Made by a program: the position numbers and the translations under genes. Of a DNA stretch of 25,825 bases, positions 4,974 to 24,909 are shown piece after piece (positions within the stretch are counted from its first letter, which is position 1; every line of letters begins with the position of its first letter). The stretch is from IMG/VR virus record IMGVR_UViG_3300017917_003501, positions 1 to 25,825 of that record. The stretch is one strand, 5' to 3'. The stretch comes from a virus. Under the pieces are notes generated by a model. That model saw nothing but the letters and a program-made list of their open reading frames with translations. It had not been told where the DNA came from and searched no databases.

Positions 4974-5384
4974 ATGCCAATACCTCAAACGATACGAGTA
5001 AATCCATTAGATTTACAAAAGAATATTGTGATTGGGGTATCATTACCCTTTAGTGCCAAAGGTGTATTTAACAAAACATATAGTACTAAAGATCAAATTA
5101 AATCTAATTTGGTTAATTTATTACTAACAGATAAGGGTGAAAGAATAATGAATCCTGAATTTGGAGCTGATTTGAGAAAATCATTGTTTGAAAATATGAC
5201 TGTTGACAGTACAGAGCTATTAAGAATTAAAATAATAGACGCTATTAATATTTTTATTCCTGAAGTAGAGTTAGGTAATATAGATATTGAAAATGATTTT
5301 GATTATAATACCTTAAATGTGACTGTAAATTATCGCTTAAGAATCTCAAATGAACCCGACCAAGTAACTGTACAATTTATATAA
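4974..5384 (+). CDS. gp25: Baseplate wedge protein, gp25-like
   Basis: This 136-residue protein is a clear member of the gp25/gpW baseplate family. It has the family's core: a strand entering KGVFNKTYSTKDQIKSNL, the helix-and-loop LLLTDKGERIMNPEFGADLR (48-67), the helix LRIKIIDAINIFIPEVEL and final beta strands NTLNVTVNYRLRI. In T4, gp25 joins the wedge to the first sheath ring and starts sheath assembly with gp6 and gp53. Size matches the family (T4 gp25 is 132 residues). It ends 2 bases before the gp6-like gene, the same order as in many T4-like and other contractile injection systems. Confidence 0.95.
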   Translation: MPIPQTIRVNPLDLQKNIVIGVSLPFSAKGVFNKTYSTKDQIKSNLVNLLLTDKGERIMNPEFGADLRKSLFENMTVDSTELLRIKIIDAINIFIPEVELGNIDIENDFDYNTLNVTVNYRLRISNEPDQVTVQFI

Positions 5385-5386
5385 TA

Positions 5387-7207
5387 ATGACTCAAGATAA
5401 GAATATATCATATTTAAATAAAGATTTTAGCACATTTAAAGCTAATCTAATAAATTATGCTAAAACATATTTCCCAACAGCATACAATGACTTTTCAGAT
5501 GCTAACCCGGGAGCTATGTTTATTGAAATGGCTTCATATGTTGGGGATGTAATGTCGTTCTATCTTGATAACCAAGTACAAGAAAATTATTTACTATACG
5601 CCAAAGAAAAAGAAAATTTATATGCTATGTCTTATGTTTTAGGTTATAGACCTAAAGCTTCATATGCATCTTCTACTATAGTAGATGTATTTCAATTAAT
5701 GCCTTCTACAGTAATAAATAACGCTGTTGTTCCTGATACTAATTATGGATTAATAATTCCTACTAATACAACATTAACATCAATATCTACAGGAACTAAG
5801 TTTTTAACTACTGAGCAAATAGATTTTAGTGATATAAGTGATGCTACTGTTACTTTTTATGATACAAGTAATTTCTTAGTAAAAAAATCAGTACCCGTTA
5901 TATCAGCTGAAATTAAAACAACAACTTTTGATTTTGGTAATCCAACTAAATTTTCTACAGTTAATATTACTGATACTAATATTTTACAAATTTTAGATAT
6001 AACAGACAGTGATGGTAATTTATGGTATGAAGTTCCATATTTAGCTCAATCTACTATATACGATAAAATAGCAAATCCTACTTATTCAACTGATCAAGTT
6101 CCTTATTTATTAAAATTAAAACGTGCACCACGTAGATTTGTTTCAAGATTATTATCTGACAATAGCTTACAATTAGAATTTGGAGCGGGAGTTTCAAATA
6201 AATCAGATGACAATATTATCCCAACACCCGATAATATTCAATTAGGTTTGGTACCAGGTGTATCTGACTTATTAGATAACTACAACCAAACATCTATATT
6301 TTATACTCAAGAATATGGATTAGCTCCTTCAAATACAACATTGACTGTCCGTTATTTAACAGGTGGTGGTATAACTTCAAATGTACCTGCTAATGATTTA
6401 ACTAGTATTGACATTTCAAATATTAGCTTTAAATCAGGAATTATAGATGATGCTATTAAAAATAGTGTAGTATCAACAAACCCAAACCCATCTTCAGGAG
6501 GTAGAAGCGCTGATGAAATTGAAGAAATTAGAAATAATGCTTTATATGCCCATTCATCTCAGTTACGTGCTGTAACTAAAAATGATTATATTGTAAGAGC
6601 ACTTTCATTACCATCAGATTATGGTAGTATTTCTAAAGTATATGTTAGTCAAGATTTAAGTATTAATGCTCAATCAACAACTCAACCTACAGCAGTCCCT
6701 AATCCATTAGCTCTAGATATGTATGTTTTAGCTTATGATTCAAATAAAAATTTAACAGCAGCTACTACTACATTAAAGCAAAATTTAGCTACATATTTGA
6801 ATGAATATAGAATGGTTACTGATGCTATTAATATTAAAGATGCTTTTTATATTAATATAGGAGTTAACTTTGATATTACTATAGTAGGTGGTTTTAACAA
6901 TCAACTTGTATTACAAGATTGTTCTAATGCTTTAAAAAATTATTTTAACATAAATAATTGGCAAATAAACCAACCAATTATGTTGTCAGATATTATGATT
7001 ACTCTTTTACAAATAAAAGGAGTACAGTCTGTAGTTAAATTAGAAATAGTAAACAAACAAGATATTACTGGAGTTACATATTCTACTTTAGGATATGATA
7101 TTTCAGGAGCTACTAGAAACAACAATATATATCCATCAGCAGATCCTTCAATTTTTGAAGTAAGATATCCTGATACAGATATTCAAGGTAGAGTTGTAAC
7201 TTATTAA
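5387..7207 (+). CDS. gp6: Baseplate wedge protein, gp6-like (baseplate J family)
   Basis: This 606-residue protein has the N-terminal signature of gp6-type wedge proteins: SYLNKDFSTFKANLINYAK, then NDFSDANPGAMFIEMASYVGD and MSFYLDNQVQENYL (about residues 9-65). The C-terminal half has the baseplate-J-like section beginning SGGRSADEIEEIRNNA (about 367-382), the motif that starts the conserved J domain. T4 gp6 is 660 residues, so the length is normal. In T4, gp6 forms the iris that holds the wedges together and drives sheath contraction. It directly follows gp25 and precedes the peptidoglycan hydrolase by 19 A-rich bases. Confidence 0.93.
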   Translation: MTQDKNISYLNKDFSTFKANLINYAKTYFPTAYNDFSDANPGAMFIEMASYVGDVMSFYLDNQVQENYLLYAKEKENLYAMSYVLGYRPKASYASSTIVDVFQLMPSTVINNAVVPDTNYGLIIPTNTTLTSISTGTKFLTTEQIDFSDISDATVTFYDTSNFLVKKSVPVISAEIKTTTFDFGNPTKFSTVNITDTNILQILDITDSDGNLWYEVPYLAQSTIYDKIANPTYSTDQVPYLLKLKRAPRRFVSRLLSDNSLQLEFGAGVSNKSDDNIIPTPDNIQLGLVPGVSDLLDNYNQTSIFYTQEYGLAPSNTTLTVRYLTGGGITSNVPANDLTSIDISNISFKSGIIDDAIKNSVVSTNPNPSSGGRSADEIEEIRNNALYAHSSQLRAVTKNDYIVRALSLPSDYGSISKVYVSQDLSINAQSTTQPTAVPNPLALDMYVLAYDSNKNLTAATTTLKQNLATYLNEYRMVTDAINIKDAFYINIGVNFDITIVGGFNNQLVLQDCSNALKNYFNINNWQINQPIMLSDIMITLLQIKGVQSVVKLEIVNKQDITGVTYSTLGYDISGATRNNNIYPSADPSIFEVRYPDTDIQGRVVTY

Positions 7208-7226: not shown

Positions 7227-8063
7227 ATGTTGTTAAAGAAAGGTGATAATAACGAACAAGTAAAACAATTACAAACTAAATTAGGTATTGATCCTATTGG
7301 TAATTTTGGTCCTAAAACAGAAGAAGCTGTTAAAGCATTTCAGTTAAAAAATGGTTTAACTCCTGACGGAATCGTTGGAGATGGTACTTGGGCTAAAATT
7401 ATGGGAAATACAACTACCACTTCTCCATTACCCGAACCAGTTGCTATAGCACCTGTAGGTGGATTAAAATTAGACAAATTAAAAGGTCATATTCCTGATG
7501 CTGTAATAGCAATGATTCCTGATACTGCTGCTAAGTTTGGTATTAATACTCCTTTACGTCTAGCTCATTTCTTAGCTCAATGTGGTCATGAATCAGGTGG
7601 TTTCCGTTTAACACAAGAAAATTTAAACTATTCAGCTAAAGGTTTGAATGGTATATTTAAAAAATATTTCCCAACAGAAGCAGCAGCCGCTCCATATAAT
7701 AGAAATCCACAAAAAATTGCTAACAAAGTTTACTCTAATAGAATGGGTAATGGAACTGAAGCAAGTGGTGATGGATATAAATTTAGAGGTCGTGGTTATA
7801 TCCAATTAACTGGTAAAGACAACTATACAGCATTTGGTAAATCAATCGGTGTAGATATGACAGTTAATCCTGATTTAGTAGCATCACAATATGCTTTATT
7901 ATCAGCAGCATGGTTCTTTACTAAGAATGGTTTACATAAAATGGCAGATGAAGGTGCAACAGATGCTGTTGTTACTAAAATTACAAAAAGAGTTAACGGT
8001 GGCACAATTGGTTTGCCTGATCGTATTAAACACTTTAAAGAATATTATCATTTGTTGGCGTAA
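7227..8063 (+). CDS. Peptidoglycan hydrolase: PG-binding domain plus GH19 domain
   Basis: This 278-residue enzyme has two parts. Residues 3-58 are a peptidoglycan-binding type 1 domain (LKKGDNNEQVKQLQTKLG, FGPKTEEAVKAFQ, DGIVGDGTW). A Thr/Pro linker follows at 60-75. Residues 85-278 form a GH19 (chitinase/lysozyme-like) domain, with HFLAQCGHESGGF holding the catalytic Glu122, ENLNYSA (131-137, Glu131) and FRGRGYIQLTG (186-196). Such enzymes cut the glycan strand of peptidoglycan. There is no signal peptide or membrane helix, so it is either a holin-dependent endolysin or a virion-borne lysozyme. Its place inside the tail block, next to a hub that lacks lysozyme, makes the virion role worth testing. 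Confidence 0.93.
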   Translation: MLLKKGDNNEQVKQLQTKLGIDPIGNFGPKTEEAVKAFQLKNGLTPDGIVGDGTWAKIMGNTTTTSPLPEPVAIAPVGGLKLDKLKGHIPDAVIAMIPDTAAKFGINTPLRLAHFLAQCGHESGGFRLTQENLNYSAKGLNGIFKKYFPTEAAAAPYNRNPQKIANKVYSNRMGNGTEASGDGYKFRGRGYIQLTGKDNYTAFGKSIGVDMTVNPDLVASQYALLSAAWFFTKNGLHKMADEGATDAVVTKITKRVNGGTIGLPDRIKHFKEYYHLLA

Positions 8064-9214: not shown

Positions 9215-9561
9215 TGTCTCGTATACCATTAGAGAAAACAGTATTTGATAAAGATGCTTTCGATAAAGTAGTTAATAGGCAATTTAGCCAATTACCTCCT
9301 GCCGTTCAGGTAGATACACAGGATGCTGCTACACCATCTTTTACAATAGAAGATTTTTTAGCTTTGTTTAATTCTTTGTATGATCTTCTACCAGAAGATA
9401 TTTTAAGACAGTTATTAGAAAGAATAGCAGGTACTTTAGAAGTAAGAATAGATGATACAGATATTCAAGCATTATTAGATGAAATTACTTCATTAAGACA
9501 ACAATTAGTAGAAATACAAACCACAGTGAACGCTGCAAGACAGGGTTCTCAACAGCAATAA
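9214..9561 (+). CDS. Small coiled-coil structural protein
   Basis: This is a 115-residue acidic protein that I do not recognise. The first 55 residues are mixed with an Asp/Phe-rich stretch. Residues 56-80 hold a helical segment (LPEDILRQLLERIAG), and residues 85-110 form a Leu/Gln-rich coiled coil (LLDEITSLRQQLVEIQ) suited to trimer or dimer formation. It is coupled to the previous gene by a TAATG overlap and precedes the 1566-residue protein by 4 bases. The pattern suggests a small oligomerising partner of the neighbouring virion proteins, which is inference. Confidence 0.7.
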   Translation: MSRIPLEKTVFDKDAFDKVVNRQFSQLPPAVQVDTQDAATPSFTIEDFLALFNSLYDLLPEDILRQLLERIAGTLEVRIDDTDIQALLDEITSLRQQLVEIQTTVNAARQGSQQQ

Positions 9562-9565
9562 GATA

Positions 9566-12500
9566 ATGGCAGATAATATTAAAATAGTAGGTAGTATTTT
9601 AAATACAAGTCAAGTTTCACGTTATGAAACAGATGACTTAAGATTAATTACTTCTTTAAATATTAAAAAAAGTTTTGATCCTTTTAATGATTATATAGAA
9701 TATCATGTTTATGATATTACAAGCAACCCTTTAGAGGACAATTACAATTATCGTAGCTATAAATTACCTACAGATGAAGCACTAAATCCAGGTGTAACTC
9801 CTGATTTAAATACAACAAATCAAACTGCTACAGGTGAACAAGTAGGTACTGTATCTAATTTAAGTACAACTTCTTCTACATATCCTATTATTGAAATTGA
9901 TCCTGTACAGGATTTACAAAATTTAGGATATTCATCAGGTGAATTTAAGGTTCAATATAATATATTTAAAAATAAAATTTCAAGTTATCCATCAGCAGAA
10001 TTATTTATTAAAGAAATTTCTCCTGATAGAACAGAAATTAGAGTTGGATCTGTTGTTTTAACTAATGATCAAATTGAAACAGGTTCTCTTGCTTTAATTG
10101 AATCCTATACTACATCTTCAATTTTTGATCCTTTCCTTTTAAATTTTGGTAACAATATACAAGAACTTGTTACTAATGTTGTTTTAAATAAAGTTGATAG
10201 TGGGTATGAAATATTATTTAAATTATATAATGAATTAGATTCAACAATAGTTGAAAAGTCATCATTATGGGTAGTAGAAGAAATTTCTACACCTTATATT
10301 TTTGATATTAATCTTGATGCAATATTATCTGCACCAACAGGTAGTATTTTAAAAGGACCTAATTTTAGTAATATATCTAATTTTGGGTTAAATTCAACAG
10401 ACGGACCTTATGAAAATCAATTCTCAAATGATCAAGAAGGATTATTTAAATTAAATAATTCTCAAAGTATTGATATTAATATAAATTACGGCGGAAACGG
10501 AAGTGGTGAAAGTGGGTTTGGTAGTTTTGTAACGTTTGGATCTGCTTTGTCACGTGTACAAAATTTCTATACTAAGGTTCAACAAATTGAAACTTATAAT
10601 AACCTTATATCTCAATACCCAACTTATAATTTAGTAAGTGGTAGTTTTTCAGGTAGTTTTTCTAGTAGTTTACAAGCAGAAATAAACACATTATCAGCTA
10701 GTATTAATAGTATTATTTCTAATTTTGATGGATTTGAAAATTATTTATATTTTGAATCAGGTAGTTTAGTTTCAACTACACAATATGGAATAACTCCTTA
10801 TCCTAAATCTAGTAGTTCTAAACCATATATTTTATTATCTACATCATCATCAGAAGCGGGTATTTGGTACGCTTCTTCATCCCTAAATGCTGAAGACTAT
10901 GATCTAAATAACGTTGATTATTTTAAATATTCAGTACCAGGCTATGTAGTAGATGACCCAAATAATACCAATTATGTAACTTTCCTAAATATGATGGGTC
11001 AGTTCTTTGATAATATTTGGATTTATATTAAATCAATCCCAGAAGTAAATTTAGCTAATAATAATTTAGAGATTGGTATTTCTAAAGATCTTGTATACAA
11101 TATGTTACAATCTTTAGGAGTAAGTGTTTTTAATAGTTTTGGTAATCAAAACATTGCTAATTATTTATTAGGTGCCAATACAGGTAGTGCTTCATATAGT
11201 GGTTATTTAGATGATTTTTCTGCTACAGGTAGTTATATAAACAATATATCTAAAAAAGATATTTTAGCAGAATCCTATAAACGTATTTATCATAATTTGC
11301 CTTTATTATTACAACGTAAAGGTACAGTTGCTGGTTTAAGAACATTACTATCTACATTTGGTATATCAAACCAAGACTACTATGCAATTTCTGGTTCTAC
11401 TTATTATACTCCTACAGGAAGTGCCTTAACAAGTAGTGTATTAAATGTAAAAGAATATGGTGGGTCTACAACTGAAGGTTTATTAGCAGGATATAATAAT
11501 GATAAAGTTAGAATTGTTGATAATGTTACTGCAAGTGTAGTTGGCACTTTTGGAAACGTATTGTCTCCTTATACAAGTATATTACAATACACAACTGCCT
11601 CTTCTAACTTTAGAACAGCAGATGAACATTATGTTGATATATCTTTTTCTCCACAAACACAATTAGATACTTATGTTTCTAAATCTATTGCTTCTGTTAA
11701 CACTAACTGGTCAATAGATGATTATATTGGAGATCCTAGACAATTATATAGTGGTTCTTATGAAAATTTAGACGCTCAAAGACAAATTTATTTTGTTGAG
11801 GGAACTGGTTCATATGCTGGATTTACAGGTTCACTTTTAGATTATAATGGGTTCATTCGCTTAATTCAGTTCTTCGATAACTCAATGTTTAAAATGTTAG
11901 AAGATTATGTTCCTGCAAGAACTAGTCTTTCAACAGGTGTTACTATTAATTCTCCTGTTTTAGAGAGAAATAAATGGTCTTATGCTCGCCCTAATCAAAC
12001 ATCAAATGAACAAGTAAAAGAAGGAAGCATAATGGAACCTTCTTTATCAGCAGTATATAATGATTTCTTTTATAATTTGTCAGGTAGTAAAGTAGCTTAT
12101 TATGATGGAGAAATTCCAGGATCAGAAATTAATGTATATGATGATTATTTTGTAACAAGTAATAAAAACCCTTGGCTAAATAATTTACAATATACTTCTT
12201 CAATATATTCTGATTTTCAAGTCTCATCACAAAATCCTTTCCCTGTATTTGGATATAAAACTATTTATGAAACAAGTACCAGTTTAGCTCCTTTTGTTGA
12301 TGGTGATGCAACATCTTCATTTAATATAAATCCATCAACTGCTTCTTTAGAAGTAAACGGTATTACTTTTATAATGACAGGAAGTACAAAACCAACAAAT
12401 ACTTCAGAAATAATTTATGTTTCAACAGGCTCAACTTTTGAAGATTCTTTATTAAATTTTTCAGTAACTTTAAATTATAGTAGATCATTATCACCGTATA

Positions 12501-14991: not shown

Positions 14992-15975
14992 ATGTCATTT
15001 ACAAGATATAATACAGACGATTCAGTAGTAAGCGCCGAAACAGTAGTGCGTGGTTTATGGAGTGGAGATAACTACACTTTAAATTCATTTTTTACGTCTA
15101 GTAACTACACAGAATATTATGTAGATATTTACGATAGTAACTTTAATACTTCAATATCTTCATCTGTTCAATTTAGCTTACAGTTTGGTAATATTAATGG
15201 CTCTGGTTCAGCTCCTATAAACCCTTCAGTTGTAGGTTATAGTCCATCTCGTGTTGTTTACGGACAATATAGAAATTTAGTTTACGGAACTGAAACAACA
15301 AACTTCAGTTTTGATGGTGGTTCTACAACATCAGATTCTATTTATGTAATTAACGTTGCTAGAGCTCGTTATAAAGAAGCTTTATTACCTGGTTCTTTAA
15401 ATTTAACTTTAACTGGAGCTAGTGGTTCATTTAAATATACAGATGATAGTGGTACTACAAATTTAACTCGTTTTATTGGTGAAAATAGATATTTTAATAT
15501 CATTAGTGGAAGTGATGGTTCTTATTACACATCAGGAACTCCATCTAAATATTATGGTTTATTCTTCCCAGATTTAGACATTATTGTTTTTGATGCTAAC
15601 GCATTAACAGGTAGCATGACTCCAGGTATTGCTTATTCAACATCAACTTCTACAGTTTATAATAACTTAAATTTGTGGAGAGCAATGCAATCAGGTAGTT
15701 CTAATTTCCAAATGAAATCATCTGAAACTGTATCAGCTCGTTATTTCTTTACTCGTGTTAAGAATAATGAATATAATTACACTACTAACCCATCTATTAT
15801 AGATGAGAATGGTAATTTATTATATACTACATTAGTAAATAATCCACAAACATACGTTACAACAGTAGGTATGTATAACGATAATAACGAATTATTAGCA
15901 GTAGCTAAATTATCAAAACCGTTAGTAAAAGATTTTACTAAAGAAGCATTAATCAGAGTGAAGTTAGATTACTAA
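14992..15975 (+). CDS. Virion/baseplate structural protein with conserved C-terminal module
   Basis: This 327-residue beta-rich, Ser/Thr/Tyr/Asn-rich protein has no membrane segment. Near the C-terminus is a compact module with NEYNYTTNPSI and MYNDNNELLAVAKLSKPL (residues 294-311), ending in a conserved RVKLDY. The same module makes up most of the 108-residue protein at 24925-25251, so the two are paralogous. The gene starts 13 bases after its neighbour, with TATAAATA abutting the ATG. Its place between fibre-type proteins suggests a baseplate or fibre-network component. The exact role is unknown. Confidence 0.7.
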   Translation: MSFTRYNTDDSVVSAETVVRGLWSGDNYTLNSFFTSSNYTEYYVDIYDSNFNTSISSSVQFSLQFGNINGSGSAPINPSVVGYSPSRVVYGQYRNLVYGTETTNFSFDGGSTTSDSIYVINVARARYKEALLPGSLNLTLTGASGSFKYTDDSGTTNLTRFIGENRYFNIISGSDGSYYTSGTPSKYYGLFFPDLDIIVFDANALTGSMTPGIAYSTSTSTVYNNLNLWRAMQSGSSNFQMKSSETVSARYFFTRVKNNEYNYTTNPSIIDENGNLLYTTLVNNPQTYVTTVGMYNDNNELLAVAKLSKPLVKDFTKEALIRVKLDY

Positions 15976-15981
15976 TCATGT

Positions 15982-18375
15982 ATGTCATCATTCAAACAAC
16001 TAAACAAATCAGACGTTACGCAGGTTGCTTATGCCGCCAATAAACAATGGGATTTTCCTATATGTTCATACCCTTCTCCTTCAGATGGTATAACTGTTTA
16101 TAAAGGTACTAATGTAACAGGAAGTTTTAATCCAATAATGGATCCTGTAACTGAAAATCAGTACGAGCGTTTAGTTTATGATCAAATTAATCATTTATTT
16201 TATCACCAATTTAGTGGTTCTTTCTTAGATACATCTTCTCTTGCAAATTCATTTTTATATGAATCTGCTTCTGAAAATTATGCTACGGCATCATATTTTG
16301 TTTATGATGAAAACCCAAACATAATTTTAAATTACCCAACAGCATCTAATGCTGGTATTCGTGTATTATCTATTAGTCAAAATTTATACGGTGAAAAAAT
16401 ATTACCTTATAACTTTTTAGTATCATCTTCTGCATACTACATAACAGATGATGGTAATGGTAATCTATATGATAGTGGAACTATCCATGTTGGAAATATT
16501 TTTTATGCTCAAGGATTAGCAGTAATTACTAATCAGGATTATCAGGAAATGCTTCCTTTACCTGCTTTGGCAGTAGCTGATATTATTACTGTAAAGGCAA
16601 GTGATTATTACAAAACAGGATCAGTAAGTGTTTTAAACAATGATATAGATAGAACAGGTACTTTACTTACAGGTTCTGTAACATTATCAGGAAGTGTTGA
16701 ATCTTTAGATCTTATAAAACTAGTAGGAGATAATGTACCTACAATGTATGCCGAGATTGTTACTAGTTCATATTCTACAACAACAGAAGGAACTATAACA
16801 TCAAGTAATTTTAGATATTTTACTGAAGGTACTTATGATGCTTATTATACAGTAGAATCATCTATTGAAACAGATTGTGGTGTAACTGTAATTTCAAGTA
16901 ATAAGGCTTTAATACGCTTTGATGTATTAGCAGGTGATTGTGATTTTGATTATACAGTAGTATTTATTCCACCTTCTCAAACACCAACTCCAACTCAAAC
17001 TCAAACGTCTACACCAACACAGACACAAACACCAACTCAAACTGCTACTCAAACAGTAACGCCAACAAATACACCAACTCAAACTCAAACTCCAACGAAT
17101 ACTCCTACTCAAACTTCTACTCAAACACCAACTCAAACTTCTACTCAAACACCAACACCAACACAAACAGCAACTAATACACCAACAAATACACCAACTC
17201 AAACTGCTACTCAAACTCAAACACCAACTCAAACTTTAACACCAACAAATACTAGTACACCAACTAATACGCCACCTTTAACACCATCACAAACACCAAC
17301 TAAAACTGTAACTCCAACTAACACTGCTACTCAAACACCAACTCAAACTGCTTCTCAAACAGTAACACCAACAAATACACCTTCTAATACACCAACAAAC
17401 ACAGTAACTCCAACAAAAACACCAACAAATACACCATCAAATACACCAACTAATACAAAGACACCATCAAATACACCAACTAATACACCAACAAACACAG
17501 TAACTCAAACAAGAACACCATCAAATACACCAACTAATACACCAACAAATACATTAACGGCATCACCAACAAGAACTCAAACGCCAACTCAAACGGCAAC
17601 TCAAACTAGAACTCCAACACCTACACCACAGGTGATTTCGATGCAGTTTAATGTAGGTGAATGGAATACTGGTTATCATTTCTATGATAATAACTTGCGT
17701 TTTGAGAAAAATGGTAGTGATGATTTTGTGTATTTTGGTACTGACGGCTTTGTAACATATAGTCAAGCTAGCCACGATGCTTATTCTAGTGGTGTTGGAT
17801 CTTATTTAGGTCCTCTTTATAAAGGTCAAACATTCTTTATAAGAAGCTTTAAAGGACTTGCAGGTTCAGGATTAAAAGTTAGTCCATTGTTTGCTACTGT
17901 TAATGTATACACTTGGGTATACTATGCAGATGGTGCTTTAGAAGATATATTTACTAGTAATGTATCATATAATTCTAATGATAACCAAACATTTGCTGAT
18001 ACTTCAGTTGTAATAGGAACTAGACCAATTAAGATTTGGACCTTCGTTAGTTATAATGCACAAACAGTATACGATCATACTTTATATTATGATAGTACTG
18101 GTGGTGGTTCTACACAAGCATGTTCTGGAACTTCTTCAATAACTATAAAATCTCCTGATGCTACATTATCAGTTGGTTCAGCAGTATTTGGTATAGATGG
18201 TGGAACAAGTAGCGGAAATATTGGTTTATATAATGTTTATTCTGATCTATATAACACATATTACTTAGAACAACACCCAGATTACGCTGAAACTTACAGA
18301 ATTTCTAACGTTGGTACTTGTTACACAGGTGGTGGCGGTGGAGAAGATCCGTTTGGTGGAGAAGTGCCACTTTAA
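15982..18375 (+). CDS. Fibre-like protein with mucin-like Thr/Pro tract
   Basis: This 797-residue protein has three parts. Residues 1-330 are beta-rich virion-type sequence, with a section resembling bacterial Ig/cadherin-like repeats ([15 protein letters not shown], 214-228). Residues 332-548 are a low-complexity tract in which every second residue is Thr or Ser (100 Thr, 8 Ser, one Pro in 109 positions), the others being Pro, Gln, Asn, Ala, Val and a few Ser, Leu, Lys and Arg. Residues 551-797 form a beta-rich C-terminal domain ending in a Gly-rich tail. The tract would be extended and rod-like and resembles O-glycosylated linkers of mucins and cellulases. The gene lies directly upstream of a GT60-type glycosyltransferase gene. 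Receptor binding by the C-terminal domain is inference. Confidence 0.75.
16978..17628 (+). repeat. Thr-X dipeptide coding repeat tract
   Basis: About 650 bases encode alternating Thr-X. Thr codons vary (ACA, ACT, ACG), so selection seems to act on the protein. Longer repeats show recent duplication. A 24-base unit is tandemly repeated at 17110-17133 and 17134-17157 (only the last base differs). A 27-base stretch starts at 17431, 17461 and 17515, and the last two copies stay identical for 35 bases. Tract length may therefore vary between relatives. Confidence 0.95.
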
Positions 18376-18395: not shown

Positions 18396-18403
18396 TAAAT
18401 TTG
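18396..18403 (+). promoter_or_regulatory. TAnnTTTG box before the glycosylation cassette
   Basis: TAAATTTG matches the -7 element (TAnnTTTG) of Bacteroidetes housekeeping promoters. It lies 32 bases before the ATG at 18436, in the 60-base gap after the fibre gene. No clear TTG element is found 19-20 bases upstream, only TTTAA, so the match is partial. If real, the cassette is read by host-type polymerase rather than by the late sigma factor. Confidence 0.3.
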
Positions 18404-18435: not shown

Positions 18436-19686
18436 ATGCCAAAAATTTATATTTCTATAGCTAGCTATAGAGACCCACAATTGTTACCTACATTACATGA
18501 TTGTATTGACAAGGCTGATCATCCTGAAAATTTAGTATTTGGTATAGCATGGCAACATGCTGAAGAAGATACTTGGGATGATTTATCTGAATTTAGAAAT
18601 GATACTCGTTTTAGAATTATTAATATTGATTATAAAGATTCTAAAGGAGCATGTTGGGCTAGACATCAAATACACCAACATTATGGAGGTGAAGAATATT
18701 ATTTCCAATTGGATTCACACCACCGTTTTGTTGAAGGTTGGGATACGGAGTGTATCAAAATGATTAAACAATTGCAAAAGAAAGGACATAAAAAACCTCT
18801 ACTTACAGCATACATAGCATCATTTGATCCAGAAAATGATCCTGCAGGCCGTAATATGGAACCTTGGTGGATGACTTTTGATAGATTTATTCCAGAAGGA
18901 GCTATATTTTTTCTACCAGCAACTATTCCAGATTATAAAAAATTAAAAGCCCCAATCCCATCAAGATTTTTATCAGCACATTTTATATTTACTTTGGGTC
19001 AGTGGTGTACTGAGGTACCTTACGATCCTGAGTATTATTTCCATGGTGAAGAAATTTCATTAGCTGTTCGTTCTTATACTTGGGGATATGATTTATTTCA
19101 TCCTCATAAAGTAATTGCTTGGCATGAATATACTCGTAAAGGTCGAACAAAACAATGGGATGATGATGGGGAATGGTTCCATAGAAATACTCATGCTCAC
19201 AAACGTAATAGAGCTCTATTTGCTGTTGATGGGGAATGTAGGTGTGGAATGGAATTTGGTCCTTATGATTTTGGAACTGAACGTACCTTGCAACAATATG
19301 AAGCATATTCAGGAATCCGTTTTAGAGATAGAGCAGTTCAACAATACACTAAAGATAATAAAGTTGCCCCAAATCCAGTTATTACTGGCCCTCTTGAATA
19401 TGAAGCCTCTTTCTTATCTATTTTCAAACATTGTATTGACGTTAGCTACCAACAAATTCCAGAGAATGATTATGATTTCTGGGTAGTAGCTTTTGAAGAT
19501 AAAGATGGTAATACAATTTTTAGACAAGATGCTGATGTAGAAGAAATAAATAGAATTAAAAATGATCCTGATGGTTACGGTAAAGTATGGAGAGAATTTC
19601 CTACATCTGTTAAACCACATAAATGGGTTATTTGGCCTCACTCTTTTTCAAAAGATTGGTGTGACAGAATTGAAGGAAACTTATAA
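18436..19686 (+). CDS. GT60-type polypeptide N-acetylglucosaminyltransferase
   Basis: This 416-residue protein matches the GlcNAc-transferase family (GT60) along about residues 4-265. Motifs seen are SIASYRDP (7-14), DYKDSKGACWARHQIH (65-80), the metal-site-like QLDSHHRF (91-98), TAYIASFDPEND (124-135), SRFLSAHFIFTLG (176-188) and FHGEEISLAVRSYTWGYDL (202-220) followed by HPH and WHEYTRKGRT (229-238). Known members add alpha-GlcNAc to hydroxyproline of Skp1 in Dictyostelium and to Thr in mucins of Trypanosoma cruzi. A C-terminal part (about 330-416, Trp/Asp-rich) is not part of that core as I know it. No membrane segment is seen, so it acts in the cytoplasm. It directly follows the gene for a Thr/Pro-rich fibre, its likely acceptor, which is inference. 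Confidence 0.88.
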   Translation: MPKIYISIASYRDPQLLPTLHDCIDKADHPENLVFGIAWQHAEEDTWDDLSEFRNDTRFRIINIDYKDSKGACWARHQIHQHYGGEEYYFQLDSHHRFVEGWDTECIKMIKQLQKKGHKKPLLTAYIASFDPENDPAGRNMEPWWMTFDRFIPEGAIFFLPATIPDYKKLKAPIPSRFLSAHFIFTLGQWCTEVPYDPEYYFHGEEISLAVRSYTWGYDLFHPHKVIAWHEYTRKGRTKQWDDDGEWFHRNTHAHKRNRALFAVDGECRCGMEFGPYDFGTERTLQQYEAYSGIRFRDRAVQQYTKDNKVAPNPVITGPLEYEASFLSIFKHCIDVSYQQIPENDYDFWVVAFEDKDGNTIFRQDADVEEINRIKNDPDGYGKVWREFPTSVKPHKWVIWPHSFSKDWCDRIEGNL

Positions 19687-19695
19687 AAATATAAC

Positions 19696-20286
19696 ATGAA
19701 CGAAGAAATAAAAGGTGAATTCCTTTATCAAGGTAAACACACAACATCACAAGTCCCATACATTAAGGACTATTTTACTAATTTATTGTTAAATGAAAAT
19801 TTTGATACAATTATTGAGTTAGGTACTCACTTTGCAGGTTTAACCTATATTATAGATGATATATGTGTTGAAAATAATTTAAAGAAAAACATACATACTT
19901 TTGACTATGCTTATCGTGATTATGTTGAAACCTATCTTAATGAAAGAAATGTATCGTATCATATTTTAGATGAAACTAAAGAAGAATATAAGATTCTTGT
20001 TAAAAAATTAATTGATGAAGGTGGTAAAACTCTTTTATTATGCGATGGTGGTTTTAAAATTAAAGAATTTAATTATTACTCTGATTTTATAAAAAGTGGA
20101 GATATAATAATGGCTCACGATTATGCCGTAAGTGAAGATATATTTAAAGCTGAAATAAAAGATAAAATTTGGAATTGGTTTGAAATCAGTTTATCTGATA
20201 TTAAAAATGCAGTTGAAAAAAATAATTTAACAGAATATAATAAAATAGATTTTAAACAAGCCGCTTGGGGCTGTTTTGTAAAATAA
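19696..20286 (+). CDS. SAM-dependent methyltransferase, CmcI-like
   Basis: This 196-residue protein has a class I methyltransferase layout. The SAM-binding motif I is TIIELGTHFAGLTYIID (38-54), followed by an acidic end of strand 2 (HTFDYAYRD, 67-75), LLLCDGGFK (113-121) and the strand GDIIMAHDYA (135-144). This set of motifs, with the late D-G-G and A-H-D-Y, is that of the CmcI/rhamnosyl O-methyltransferase type, which methylates sugar or small-molecule hydroxyls. It lies 9 bases after the GT60 gene and 1 base before the next transferase gene. Methylation of a sugar on the glycan is the most natural role here but is not proven. Confidence 0.7.
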   Translation: MNEEIKGEFLYQGKHTTSQVPYIKDYFTNLLLNENFDTIIELGTHFAGLTYIIDDICVENNLKKNIHTFDYAYRDYVETYLNERNVSYHILDETKEEYKILVKKLIDEGGKTLLLCDGGFKIKEFNYYSDFIKSGDIIMAHDYAVSEDIFKAEIKDKIWNWFEISLSDIKNAVEKNNLTEYNKIDFKQAAWGCFVK

Positions 20287-20287
20287 T

Positions 20288-20998
20288 ATGGAATACGCAA
20301 TAGCTACTTTTTGTTATGGTGATAGGTACTATCAACAGACTAATCGTCTGATTGAGAGTTTTGACTACATGGAAGAAAAACCACAAATATTTGTTGTAAC
20401 TGATAGTGTAGAATCAATAATTAAACGTGATTTTGTTAATGTAGATGATATAAATAATTACAACCCTAAGTACTCAATATACGAAAAAAATTACTATGAA
20501 TTTGATTTCTCAGTAAAACGTTTTTCATTAAAATATGCTTTTGACAACGGATATAATAAAGTAATATTAGCAGATACTGATGTTGTTGTTAACCCTGAAA
20601 GATATAACCACCAACATGTGTTGAATTCATTTATTGAAAATTCAATTGCAGGTCAAGTAACCTATAATTTTAATAATGAAATAATTACAAATAGCAATCT
20701 TGGTAGAAGATTAGTCCATTATGAATCTAAATTTGGAGTGGAGTTTGACAAGTCAAAACTTAATTTTATGCCTGAAGATTGCATTCAGTATATTTCAATA
20801 GAAGGTGATACAAGGTATAAATTTTTTCAAACATGGGACGAATGTATATCAATTAAAGATACAGATGGTTTGTATAATATCCCTGCAGGAAACATAGATG
20901 AAATGAGTTTTGCAGCATTATATAATGGTATAGAAGTAACAAATAATTCAAACAAATCAATAAATTTATTAATAGCACATCATGATAAATGGTACTAA
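20288..20998 (+). CDS. GT-A-type glycosyltransferase
   Basis: This 236-residue protein has the features of a small GT-A enzyme: an N-terminal strand AIATFCYGDRYYQQT (4-18), IFVVTDS (34-40) and a DxD motif in KVILADTDVVV (91-101, Asp96 and Asp98). The C-terminal GNIDEMSFAALYNG (201-214) is an acceptor-side acidic helix of the kind found in such transferases, and HHDKWY ends the protein. It is smaller than most GT8-like enzymes but complete. The donor sugar cannot be read from sequence. Its 3' end overlaps the next gene by 17 bases, which suggests tight coupling within the cassette. Confidence 0.7.
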   Translation: MEYAIATFCYGDRYYQQTNRLIESFDYMEEKPQIFVVTDSVESIIKRDFVNVDDINNYNPKYSIYEKNYYEFDFSVKRFSLKYAFDNGYNKVILADTDVVVNPERYNHQHVLNSFIENSIAGQVTYNFNNEIITNSNLGRRLVHYESKFGVEFDKSKLNFMPEDCIQYISIEGDTRYKFFQTWDECISIKDTDGLYNIPAGNIDEMSFAALYNGIEVTNNSNKSINLLIAHHDKWY

Positions 20999-21842
20999 AA
21001 CTGTAGTAACTTCACTATATGAATTAACATATGTTGAGGAAAGAGGAAAAATGGTATATAAAAGTTTCCCATTATTGTCCGAAACAATTCGATCTATAAT
21101 TTTTGAAGGGTATAATTATGTTATATATACTAACAAATATACCTTTGAAAAACATGAATTATCAAAAGTTTTTCTACAACCTAATGTTACAATTAAATTT
21201 AAAGAATTAGGTTCTCCTGTTTTTAAAGATATAGTGACACCTATAAGAAAAACAGCTAATGCTAGAGGGGAAATATGGGATAGAATATATTCTGTTGAAG
21301 ATTATGCTGAAGTACTTTTAAATAAACTAGAAATGTTATTAGAAGAATCTACTACAGAAGGAGAAGGAAGTGTAGTATGGCTTGATGCTGGATTGTTTGG
21401 AACAAGTTGTCATGATGGGTGGAGAGATTATATGAAAGATAATTTAGTACATAGAAAAGAATTTTTAGATAAAATATTTGAAAAAATAGATGAATTTAAA
21501 TTTATTGCTTTAAGAGGTAATGGTATTAATATTAATTATGAAATTGAGGAAAGAATCAACAAAATAGCAGGATCATCTTTAAAACTTATTCCTGGTGGAT
21601 TATTCGGGGGGACTAAAAGTAAAATTTTAGATGTATTTAAAGACTATTTGAAAGTTTATCTTGATTATACCCAAACATATAATCATTTAGTTACCGATCA
21701 AGAAATTTTAGCTATATTAACTGCTAATAAAGATGTAAAATTTTATGAGTTTCAAGATTGGACCGATTTTCAAAGAGGTATTTTACAAATATTAGATAAA
21801 TACGATGAGTCTAAGTATCAAACAGAAAAATGTTATGAATAA
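20982..21842 (+). CDS. HtrL/YibB (WlaTC)-like glycosyltransferase
   Basis: This 286-residue protein shows the pattern of the HtrL/YibB family, which includes WlaTC-type transferases of lipooligosaccharide clusters: an N-terminal VVTSLYEL (8-15), VVWLDAGLF (131-139, a DxG in place of DxD), FKFIALRG (172-179), GGLFGG (205-210) and TDQEILAIL (238-246). The N-terminal domain of the 22430-24100 protein has the same motifs in the same order, so the two are paralogous. ATG 20982 lies inside the end of the preceding gene; no closer ATG exists in this frame before residue 24. The product is likely a cytoplasmic sugar transferase extending the same glycan. Confidence 0.68.
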   Translation: MINGTKTVVTSLYELTYVEERGKMVYKSFPLLSETIRSIIFEGYNYVIYTNKYTFEKHELSKVFLQPNVTIKFKELGSPVFKDIVTPIRKTANARGEIWDRIYSVEDYAEVLLNKLEMLLEESTTEGEGSVVWLDAGLFGTSCHDGWRDYMKDNLVHRKEFLDKIFEKIDEFKFIALRGNGININYEIEERINKIAGSSLKLIPGGLFGGTKSKILDVFKDYLKVYLDYTQTYNHLVTDQEILAILTANKDVKFYEFQDWTDFQRGILQILDKYDESKYQTEKCYE

Positions 21843-22413
21843 TAGAGAAATATTAAACTTAATTTTAAACTTAAAAAATCAAGAATTAGATGATCTAGAT
21901 CTACATTCATATGATTATATCGTCAATAAATTATCAACATTCGCTCAATATTTTCATTGGCCTTCAGGTAGAGAACATTATAGACTTTTAAATAAAATAT
22001 CTACTTTTTTTACTAATGAAACAATATATGATATAGGCACTAATAATGGATGTTCAGCCTTAGCTCTTTCTGAAAACGAAAGTAATTTAGTTAAATCATA
22101 TGATATTAATTTTCATGACGGTGTGCAATTTGTAATTAAAAAAAATATTAATATATATTTAAAAAATGTATTAGAAGAACCTGGTTTTCCGAATGATAGT
22201 AGATTTATAATGCTAGATACTGACCATGATGGAAAATTTGAAAAAATATTTTATAATTTTTTAAAAGAAAATAAATATAAAGGTCTTTTATTTTTAGACG
22301 ATATACATTTAAATGAAGATATGAAAAATCTTTGGGAATCTATAATTGAAGAAAAATATGACTTAACATCAGTTGGTCATAATACGGGTAGTGGAATTGT
22401 AATATTTGAATAA
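21835..22413 (+). CDS. SAM-dependent methyltransferase
   Basis: This 192-residue protein has motif I of class I methyltransferases, TIYDIGTNNGCSALALSE (63-80), an acidic end of strand 2 (SYDINFHDG, 88-96) and the strands RFIMLDTDHDG (123-133) and GLLFLDDIHLN (150-160). I chose ATG 21835, which overlaps the previous stop (ATGAATAA). An ATG at 21805 would only add ten residues that lie inside the preceding gene. The type resembles sugar-modifying methyltransferases such as those in polysaccharide clusters. By eye the DNA is even more A/T-rich than the GT60 gene, which may point to a different origin. Confidence 0.68.
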   Translation: MNNREILNLILNLKNQELDDLDLHSYDYIVNKLSTFAQYFHWPSGREHYRLLNKISTFFTNETIYDIGTNNGCSALALSENESNLVKSYDINFHDGVQFVIKKNINIYLKNVLEEPGFPNDSRFIMLDTDHDGKFEKIFYNFLKENKYKGLLFLDDIHLNEDMKNLWESIIEEKYDLTSVGHNTGSGIVIFE

Positions 22414-22429
22414 AACAATATAAAGTGTT

Positions 22430-24100
22430 ATGAGTACAACTGTAGTTACAGGTATTTGGGATATAAAACGTTCTTCTCTTGCAGAAGGGTGGTCAAGATC
22501 TTTTGATCACTATCTAAATAATTTAGAAAAATTATTAAAATCTCCTGATAATTTTATAATTTATATTGAAGAAGAATATGAGGGATGGGTATGGGAAAGA
22601 AGAAATAAAGATAATACTGTAGTTATTGTACGAAGTTTAGATTGGTTTAAATCTAATAGTTTTGCATATGACAAAATTCAAGAAATAAGAAACAAACCTG
22701 AATGGTATAACCAAGCAGGCTGGCTACCAGACAGCACTCAGGCTAAATTAGAGATGTACAATCCTATTGTTATGTCAAAGGTATTTTTACTTAATGATGC
22801 CGCTATATTTGATCCATTTGATTCAACTCACTTAGTTTGGGTTGATGGAGCTTTAACAAATACAGTTCATGAAGGTTATTTTTGGCATGATAAAGTTATT
22901 TCTAAATTAGAAAATTATTTTAATAAGTTTAGTTTTGTTGCTTTTCCATATGATGGTAAAAATGAAATACATGGTTTTACTTATGGACCTATGTGTAAGT
23001 ATGCTGAAGGAGAAGTTGATAAGGTTTGTAGAGGTGGAATATTTGGAGGACCTAAACACATAATTAGCAGAGTAAATGAAATATATTATTCTCTAATGAT
23101 AGATACTTTATCTGCAGGATATATGGGGACTGAAGAATCTTTATTTACAATAATGCTTTACAAATACCCAGAATTATTTCAATATTACAGTATTGATATG
23201 AATGGCTTATTAGGTAGTTTTTTTGAAAATTTAAAAAATGATACTTTAACTCCACAAATTCAATCAAACAATATTGTAATAAATACAAGTAATGTTAACA
23301 ATACTGCTTTATATGTTTTAACCTATAATTCACCAGAACAATTTGAAACACTTTGTGTGTCATTTAAAGAATATGATAGAAATTTTTTAGATAAACCTAA
23401 AAAGTTCTTACTAAATAATTCATTAGATCATAGTACAGATAAAGAGTATGCTGAAATTTGTAATAAATATGGGTTTGAAGAAATTAAAAAAGATAATTTA
23501 GGTATATGTGGTGGTAGACAATTTATAGCAGAACACGCTGAGGCAAATGGCTTTGATTATCATTTCTTTTTTGAAGATGATATGTTTTTTTACCTAGGTA
23601 AGGATAGTGTTTGTAGAAATGGATTTAGAAGACATATTCCAAATTTTTATACTACATTAATGCAAATTGCTTTTGATGAAAATTTTGATTTTTTAAAATG
23701 GAATTTTAGCGAATTTTATGGTGATAATAGAAAACAATGGGCATGGCACAATGTACCAGCACAAGTCCGCTCTGAACTATTCCCAGACAATCCAATAAAA
23801 TCAACATCCGATACAGATGCTGCTCCTTACGCCAAATATAAAAATATAAAATCATTTAACGGGTTACCTTACGCTACTGGTGAAATTTATTATTGTAATT
23901 GGCCCCAGGTAGTGTCTCGTGAAGGAAATAAAAAAATGTTTTTAAATACTAAATGGGCACATCCTTTTGAACAAACGTGGATGAGCCATATATATCAAGA
24001 AACATTAAAGGGTAATATATATCCGGGAATATTATTAGCATCTCCAACAGAACATAACAGATTTGAGTTCTACAGGGCTGAAGAAAGACGTGAAAATTAA
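22430..24100 (+). CDS. Two-domain glycosyltransferase: HtrL/YibB-like plus GT-A
   Basis: This 556-residue protein is a fusion. Residues 1-260 are HtrL/YibB-like: VVTGIWDIKR (5-14), HLVWVDGALT (134-143), FSFVAFPYDG (167-176), GGIFGG (202-207) and GTEESLFTIML (233-243). These match the 20982-21842 protein motif for motif. Residues 292-556 form a second transferase domain of GT-A type with ALYVLTYNSPEQF (293-305), an acidic FFFEDDMFFY (379-388) as metal site and HPFEQTWMSHIYQE (511-524) near the end. Such fusions often add two successive sugars. It is the last cassette gene, and the next begins 23 bases on after an ATATTTATA box. Donors and acceptors are unknown. Confidence 0.7.
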   Translation: MSTTVVTGIWDIKRSSLAEGWSRSFDHYLNNLEKLLKSPDNFIIYIEEEYEGWVWERRNKDNTVVIVRSLDWFKSNSFAYDKIQEIRNKPEWYNQAGWLPDSTQAKLEMYNPIVMSKVFLLNDAAIFDPFDSTHLVWVDGALTNTVHEGYFWHDKVISKLENYFNKFSFVAFPYDGKNEIHGFTYGPMCKYAEGEVDKVCRGGIFGGPKHIISRVNEIYYSLMIDTLSAGYMGTEESLFTIMLYKYPELFQYYSIDMNGLLGSFFENLKNDTLTPQIQSNNIVINTSNVNNTALYVLTYNSPEQFETLCVSFKEYDRNFLDKPKKFLLNNSLDHSTDKEYAEICNKYGFEEIKKDNLGICGGRQFIAEHAEANGFDYHFFFEDDMFFYLGKDSVCRNGFRRHIPNFYTTLMQIAFDENFDFLKWNFSEFYGDNRKQWAWHNVPAQVRSELFPDNPIKSTSDTDAAPYAKYKNIKSFNGLPYATGEIYYCNWPQVVSREGNKKMFLNTKWAHPFEQTWMSHIYQETLKGNIYPGILLASPTEHNRFEFYRAEERREN

Positions 24101-24123: not shown

Positions 24124-24909
24124 TTGGCTGACATAAGTGCATACGTAACATTCACATCAGGAACTGGTCCTGGTCCTTATAATATATACTATCGTAATCC
24201 TTTAACAAACGATTTAGTATTTTATGAGGGGCCATTAACATTACAGGAATTATATAATACAAGAATTATTCAAGTACCGGAAACTACAAAAACAATTACT
24301 GTAAAAAATATTAATCCTGCTTGTAACGGGCGTTTTAAAGATATTCCAATTACTTATAATCCGTTGACTCCAACCCCAACAATGACGTCAACTTCAACAC
24401 CAACACCGGATTTAACACAAACACCAACTGTTACAGCAACTGCAACAAATACACCATCACCAACTTTAACACCAACGTTAACTGCAACACCGACATCAAC
24501 ACCAACAAATACACCAACACCGTCTACTCCATTAGTAGCAGTCAATGTATCTTTAACAATAGATCCAGGAAATACAGGATATACGAGAATATACAGATTT
24601 AACGGTGTTACTTCTACCTTGTTAACAACTTTAAGTACTACAACATCAACAACTGTCTTTATACCTAGTGGCCAGCAGTATTATGTCATAACAGTTCAAC
24701 AAAGTAGACAGTTTGATACTCAGGTAGCTCAAATTAATAATTATATTAATGGTGTTGCCGATATTTGTAGTCCATACGTTGTAACAACATTGAATAGTAT
24801 AGCAGAATTACAATGTTCTTCTCAATATTCACCAAATCTTTACCCAACAGCTCAATATGGAGGTAGTTACACTGTTAATACCTTCCTTGGATATAGAAGA
24901 CCTGTTTAA
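24124..24909 (+). CDS. Small fibre-like protein with second Thr/Pro tract (TTG start)
   Basis: This 261-residue protein starts at TTG. No in-frame ATG is found before residue 87, and the TTG is 14 bases after an ATATTTATA box. Residues 1-80 form a small beta domain (AYVTFTSGTGPGPYNIYY). Residues 82-134 are a Thr/Pro-rich tract with Thr or Ser at 26 of 27 alternating positions (one Asp at 96), like the fibre protein at 15982-18375. Residues 137-261 form a beta-rich C-terminal domain with Ser/Thr/Gln-rich strands and a few Cys. There is no membrane segment. It is likely a virion surface protein and a second candidate acceptor for the glycosylation cassette that lies between it and the first one. 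Confidence 0.72.
   Translation: MADISAYVTFTSGTGPGPYNIYYRNPLTNDLVFYEGPLTLQELYNTRIIQVPETTKTITVKNINPACNGRFKDIPITYNPLTPTPTMTSTSTPTPDLTQTPTVTATATNTPSPTLTPTLTATPTSTPTNTPTPSTPLVAVNVSLTIDPGNTGYTRIYRFNGVTSTLLTTLSTTTSTTVFIPSGQQYYVITVQQSRQFDTQVAQINNYINGVADICSPYVVTTLNSIAELQCSSQYSPNLYPTAQYGGSYTVNTFLGYRRPV
24367..24525 (+). repeat. Second Thr-X dipeptide tract
   Basis: Fifty-three codons encode Thr or Ser at alternate positions with Pro, Ala, Leu, Ser, Val and others between. It has the same register and style as the 16978-17628 tract but no long exact repeats that I can see. Shared design across two proteins argues for a functional rather than accidental repeat. Confidence 0.92.

Follow-up and report, generated by a model that had tools for sequence, protein, structure and literature searches.

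A GT60 glycosyltransferase in a phage tail module and its candidate acceptor, a Thr/Pro-rich stalk protein

Introduction

The UDP-GlcNAc:polypeptide alpha-N-acetylglucosaminyltransferases TcOGNT-2 of T. cruzi and Gnt2 of Dictyostelium belong to glycosyltransferase family GT60, and the question raised by the locus described here is what an enzyme of this family would glycosylate in a phage. The locus lies in a 25.8-kb virus record (the whole stretch of DNA analyzed, hereafter the window) that holds a contractile-tail baseplate module (Table 1). GT60 has been described from prokaryotes as well as from protists, so a phage or prokaryotic member is not in itself surprising (PMC7185993). An earlier note, made from the letters of the window alone, had already pointed to the enzyme; taken as a whole, its observation was confirmed and its interpretation partly supported, but it left out what proved to be the informative part of the locus, a gene for a 797-aa protein with a Thr/Pro-rich stalk, separated from the downstream GT60 gene by 60 bp. 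We consider that the enzyme probably starts the O-glycosylation of this stalk, the phage's own, by placing alpha-GlcNAc on threonine.

Table 1. Features of the window discussed in the text. Residue numbers refer to the encoded protein.
Feature	Position	Strand	Basis
Baseplate wedge subunits	4974-7207		
Endolysin-type gene	7227-8063		
797-aa protein of the tail module, with a Thr/Pro stalk between its conserved N-terminal domain and its C-terminal domain; proposed acceptor	15982..18375	+	
Thr/Pro-rich stretch, residues 315-565 of the 797-aa protein	16924..17676	+	Sliding window
GT60 glycosyltransferase, 416 aa	18436..19686	+	ORF, PF11397, phrog_24687, AlphaFold model
GT-A catalytic domain, residues 1-296	18436..19323	+	End of PF11397 match at 296, polypeptide GalNAc-transferase fold
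DxH metal/nucleotide motif, D93-S94-H95	18712..18720	+	Invariant D93 and H95
H230 of WHEYTR; candidate for the C-terminal, metal-binding His of the GT-A core	19123..19125	+	Invariant column
Predominantly beta C-terminal domain (residues 297-416) with a W-x-x-W-P-x-S...W motif	19324..19683	+	Model, distribution
Cassette gene, 196 aa; possibly SAM methyltransferase-like	19696..20286	+	ORF, sequence appearance only, no family match
Cassette gene, 236 aa, ADTDV (DxD-like) motif; possible glycosyltransferase	20288..20998	+	ORF, no family match
Cassette gene, 286 aa, resembles the N-terminal part of the 22430-24100 gene	20982..21842	+	By eye, no confident family
Cassette gene, 202 aa; possibly SAM methyltransferase-like	21805..22413	+	ORF, by eye, no family match
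Fusion of an HtrL/YibB domain with a glycosyltransferase-like part	22430..24100	+	PF09612, E 4e-15
261-aa protein, the second one rich in Thr/Pro (residues 65-157); also a candidate acceptor	24124..24909	+	

Family, Fold and Active Site

The gene begins with ATG and runs uninterrupted through its 416-aa reading frame. Its product is a member of GT60: the Pfam family PF11397 (GlcNAc glycosyltransferase, GT60) matches it with an E-value of 1.7e-69 and a score of 235 bits, where the curated cut-off is 21, so that the family assignment made for a phage enzyme in the earlier note was right. The match is split into two stretches, the better of which joins residues 52-296 to positions 92-350 of the 352 in the profile, and the phage family phrog_24687 spans residues 2-412. 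No other Pfam-A family was matched, NCBIfam was found to hold no model for the GT60 enzyme, and searches of solved structures by sequence, with the single protein and with a profile, returned chance matches only and no GT27 chain of the PDB. The enzyme has no membrane segment, as had been claimed, the highest 19-residue Kyte-Doolittle mean being 0.92. The dN/dS ratio of 0.11-0.16 against five close relatives, and of 0.22 against one relative that is 64% identical, indicates a gene maintained by purifying selection. The enzyme itself adds a member to an established family, phage copies of which are already in the databases.

An AlphaFold model of the enzyme, built with 60 window and locus sequences, reached a pLDDT of 95.5 and a pTM of 0.92, and GT-A enzymes, as expected for GT60, are its best matches in the PDB; polypeptide GalNAc-transferases of family GT27 take ranks 1-25 and 27-36, i.e., 35 of the 36 best matches, with a best E-value of 4.7e-10. 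In a fold search against viral models phages supply the best matches, under the existing name "Glycosyltransferase, GlcNAc," and giant-virus proteins (Megaviridae, Pandoravirus salinus) appear within the top six. D93, H95, and H230 are invariant across 60 GT60 sequences, with DxH standing in place of DxD, and the core motifs are complete, as the first reading of the sequence had it. DxH is the version of the metal motif typical of GT27 and GT60, two families that cluster with each other and have both been described as carrying out Ser/Thr polypeptide O-glycosylation (PMC7185993). Because the best fold matches start mucin-type O-glycosylation, and because GT27 and GT60 have the DxH motif in common, the enzyme is read here as a polypeptide transferase. 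A metal-binding role has also been described for the C-terminal His of GT27 (PMC7185993), of which H230 would, by analogy, be the counterpart. The likeness to GT27 in fold and motif does not extend to the sequence family: identity in the fold alignments is about 11-18%, and no ricin-type lectin domain, looked for at the C-terminus as in a GT27 enzyme, was matched by Pfam.

The C-Terminal Domain

The extension seen earlier at the C-terminus is real, but it reaches 120 residues beyond the Pfam profile (297-416) rather than 85. A mild enrichment in Trp (5.9%) and Asp (12.9%) is indeed seen in the last 85 residues. The description of this part as something extra did not hold: it is instead a standard domain of the prokaryotic and phage GT60 subfamily, present in all phage rows and in most full-length bacterial rows of our alignment, in which short GT60s of the Aquimarina, Niabella, and Actinoplanes types lack it. 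That the domain is peculiar to the window phage was likewise rejected, given its presence in the aligned relatives and the span of phrog_24687. Modeled alone, residues 300-416 formed a mainly beta domain (pLDDT 94.9), for which no significant PDB fold match was found; the weak matches are beta-sandwiches of a generic kind, among them Wzt carbohydrate-binding domains with E-values above 0.1. Acceptor binding, raised in the earlier note from the look of the sequence, might be the role of this domain.

The Stalk Protein and the Gene Cassette

The 797-aa tail-module protein matches no Pfam family, and its N-terminal part is found also in relatives without a stalk. The stalk stretch (residues 315-565) consists of 40.6% Thr, 16.7% Pro, 11.2% Gln, and 8.4% Asn, the repeat proper covering approximately residues 331-555. 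Among homologues of this protein in other records (L165-L243), stalkless forms of about 310 aa and long stalked forms both occur, and in the same records an accessory-gene hotspot extends from the stalk-protein homologue up to a SegE-like endonuclease. A Thr/Pro gene lies just upstream of GT60 in all nine of the closest relatives (L003-L011), and in eight of these nine a second one follows the cassette, as it does in the window.

In the cassette, the gene at 22430-24100 has a weak match to phrog_842, a phage glucosyltransferase family (E 8e-6), and, below the cut-off, matches to PF20691 (TAGT; E 9e-4) and TIGR02192 (E 1e-18); for its YibB domain Pfam gives no function. The cassette differs between loci: at L222 the GT60 gene is its sole recognizable member and at L230 it is accompanied by one GT34-like gene, which fits an initiating enzyme able to act alone. 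Neither tRNA genes nor Rfam families were found in the 25.8-kb window. Just ahead of the GT60 gene, at 18396-18403, stands TAAATTTG, which fits the Bacteroidota promoter element TAnnTTTG and is possibly a hint of a Bacteroidota host.

Proposed Mechanism

The enzyme would work as a soluble, metal-dependent, retaining polypeptide glycosyltransferase in the cytoplasm of the infected cell, transferring alpha-GlcNAc, or the sugar of a close UDP-HexNAc, from the host UDP-sugar to the threonines of the stalk before the tail is assembled. We infer the UDP-GlcNAc donor and the retaining (alpha) product by analogy, while the genomic context suggests proteins as acceptors, through their Thr/Ser or hydroxyproline. 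The acceptors would be the 797-aa product and probably also the second, 261-aa Thr/Pro protein, and the remaining cassette genes (YibB/TAGT-like, glycosyltransferase-like, and methyltransferase-like) might lengthen the glycan or cap it. Possible roles of the sugar are to make the stalk stiffer and protect it against proteases, or to serve in adhesion. The new part of this proposal is the link to the stalk, which the context supports and which makes the stalk protein a predicted acceptor.

Association of GT60 With Thr/Pro Stalks

The pairing seen in the window recurs well beyond its closest relatives. In phage tail modules matched to that of the window and selected on a structural gene of that module alone, GT60 is present in 12 of the 29 with a Thr/Pro stretch downstream vs. 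none of the 23 without one (one-sided Fisher test, 2.5e-4). On the tree of that structural gene the GT60 state changes only three times, so the association amounts to few independent events (about three gains), and a phylogenetic pair test within the matched module likewise had few independent pairs. The stalk does not need GT60, since 17 stalked modules have none. On a wider scale, a Thr/Pro stretch lies within 4 kb of GT60 in 39 of 73 viral loci dereplicated at 90%, on the same strand in 38 and upstream in 33 of these 39, as compared with 10/68 GT60s from the genome collection and 5/76 control loci found with a reversed pattern. Dereplication at 75% leaves 13/32 viral GT60s vs. 5/76 controls (p 5e-5). 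The upstream Thr/Pro proteins of 66 loci, some of whose contigs are present twice, fall into 15 groups with no similarity outside the repeats, and on supported branches of the GT60 tree the neighbor switches state, between Thr/Pro gene and none, 12 times or more. Repeats of the TPTxTPT type are present in 17 of 19 GT60-carrying records of at least 100 kb, two of which look near-identical, and in control records in none of three of at least 100 kb and one of nine of at least 50 kb.

Such a pairing would be uninformative on the acceptor if GT60 were a passenger, given that the tail-tip regions of large aquatic phages gather accessory genes and that Thr/Pro stalks are common there. The few independent gains within the matched module speak for this explanation, as does phrog_4417, another family of the same hotspot, with no assigned function, which has a stretch of at least 40 residues within 4 kb in 27 of 51 loci, the same rate as that of GT60 (39/73). 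The two families part when stretches of at least 80 residues are counted, a threshold chosen after the first result had been seen with the original length of 40: GT60 has them at 34/73 loci vs. 7/51 for phrog_4417 at 90% dereplication (p 2e-4), and at 10/32 vs. 4/24 at 75% (p 0.35), while within the matched module they accompany 11 of 12 GT60 loci, 1 of 10 with phrog_4417, and 9 of 30 that have neither. As a control, phrog_4417 weakens the specificity of the pairing, in that GT60 exceeds it for long stalks alone. To these GT60 is tied, and it never occurs in an unstalked module (0/23), which makes a passenger role rather unlikely in our opinion. Furthermore, phrog_4417 may not be a neutral control, since a conserved HDxDI motif, present together with a GGAQ motif (L198:13507-14445, L518-L597), makes it look like what could be an unrecognized glycosyltransferase. 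Close to a Thr/Pro-rich tail protein, L198 also encodes a phage protein matching TOD1/MUCI70, a plant glycosyltransferase-like domain (15845-16498, E 1e-6).

Other Possible Acceptors

The enzyme could also be a protein O-glycosyltransferase with another target, either a different virion protein or a surface protein of the host, the modification of which would exclude competing phages. Some phage GT60s form tandem pairs with no Thr/Pro neighbor (the subclade L012, L015-L023, L029, L030), and two large records of this subclade carry no TPTxTPT-type repeat anywhere; in the phages XacN1 and RAS14 the GT60 gene is not adjacent to Thr/Pro-rich genes, and in XacN1 it adjoins a carbamoyltransferase gene, unlike in the window. 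This target nevertheless appears unlikely, as a Thr/Pro neighbor upstream on the same strand recurs among many unrelated proteins and most large GT60 records hold Thr/Pro repeats somewhere. A non-protein acceptor, be it hypermodified phage DNA or a host surface polysaccharide, is improbable: a nearby gene has weak similarity to glycosyltransferases of the TET-associated (DNA base) type and to a phage family of DNA glucosyltransferases, and phage glycosyltransferase clusters have been interpreted as capsular-polysaccharide modification systems (PMC7824862), but the fold and the DxH motif indicate polypeptide transferases, a Thr/Pro-rich protein precedes the gene within the tail module, and Pfam, PHROG, and module annotation recognized no gene for nucleotide modification in the window.

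Comparison With Known Systems

The stalk as acceptor finds its closest biochemical parallel in protists. The T. cruzi enzyme transfers alpha-GlcNAc onto Thr of mucins that contain about 50% Thr and 6-11% Pro, and in vitro it accepts KPPTTTTTTTTKPP (PMC3769586). The window enzyme shares PF11397 with TcOGNT-2 and Gnt2, and its Thr-rich neighbor resembles the T. cruzi mucins in composition; unlike the two protist enzymes, which are Golgi membrane proteins, it is soluble, has a C-terminal domain beyond the Pfam profile, and is known from sequence. Glycosylation of phage virions has precedents, the C-termini of capsid and tail-tube proteins being reported as glycosylated in mycobacteriophages (PMC12619734, citing Freeman 2023), whereas a mucin-like stalk is proposed here.

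Among isolated phages, XacN1 comes nearest to the window. Its ORF334 is a GT60 enzyme, sharing 46.5% identity with the window enzyme across 98% of the latter, and the Thr/Pro-rich stretches of the phage cover 207 residues in ORF370, 316 in ORF372, and at least 434 in ORF384. At least two XacN1 glycoproteins were detected by proteomics and tentatively ascribed to phage enzymes; the genome paper counts ORF334 among the two glycosyltransferases of XacN1, and its main text does not name the glycoproteins (PMC5852040). XacN1 also carries a GT9-type enzyme. It thus represents an existing isolate that combines a related enzyme and Thr/Pro-rich proteins with reported glycoproteins.

More tentatively, it is plausible that many large aquatic phages carry a self-contained mucin system, composed of a stalk acceptor, a GT60 initiator, and a swappable extension cassette, and thereby display mucin-like stalks on their virions. 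If so, mucin-type O-glycosylation initiated by a dedicated polypeptide transferase would be widespread among phages, the acceptor gene lying next to that of the enzyme; the numerous Thr/Pro-repeat stalks of phage tail proteins would be accounted for, a soluble enzyme would be at hand for protein engineering, and the origin of GT60 in prokaryotes, phages, giant viruses, or protists would become testable. In the literature searched, which mostly excludes subscription journals, we found no publication linking GT60 with Thr/Pro-rich phage proteins and nothing relevant on Thr-rich or mucin-like glycosylation of phage tails.

Distribution and Phylogeny

The database search that the earlier note had suggested shows phage GT60s to be numerous in IMG/VR. 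A scan with the single window protein returned 28 loci, all close relatives, and a profile search at least 589 confirmed GT60 stretches, while a GT60 profile search of bacterial and archaeal genomes gave 275 stretches; among 50,697 phage records, three (XacN1, CM1, and RAS14) have GT60. In a tree of 134 proteins, built without protist sequences, the phage enzymes form one group (support 95) together with nine rows from the genome collection, a part of them possibly phage contigs binned into MAGs, and the other bacterial GT60s fall outside it.

Two unusual arrangements were seen along the way. In many phages tandem pairs consist of two different GT60-type enzymes (L012, L015-L017, L019-L025, L028-L030; for example, L024:8001-9257 and 9250-10524), the second kind of which (IHLPAYREPELIPTI...) likewise matches PF11397. 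In MAGs of Myxococcota/delta-proteobacteria, GT60 is fused with radical-SAM and SPASM domains in a 622-aa protein (L303:6001-7866), and similar lengths occur in L304, L306, L307, and L309.
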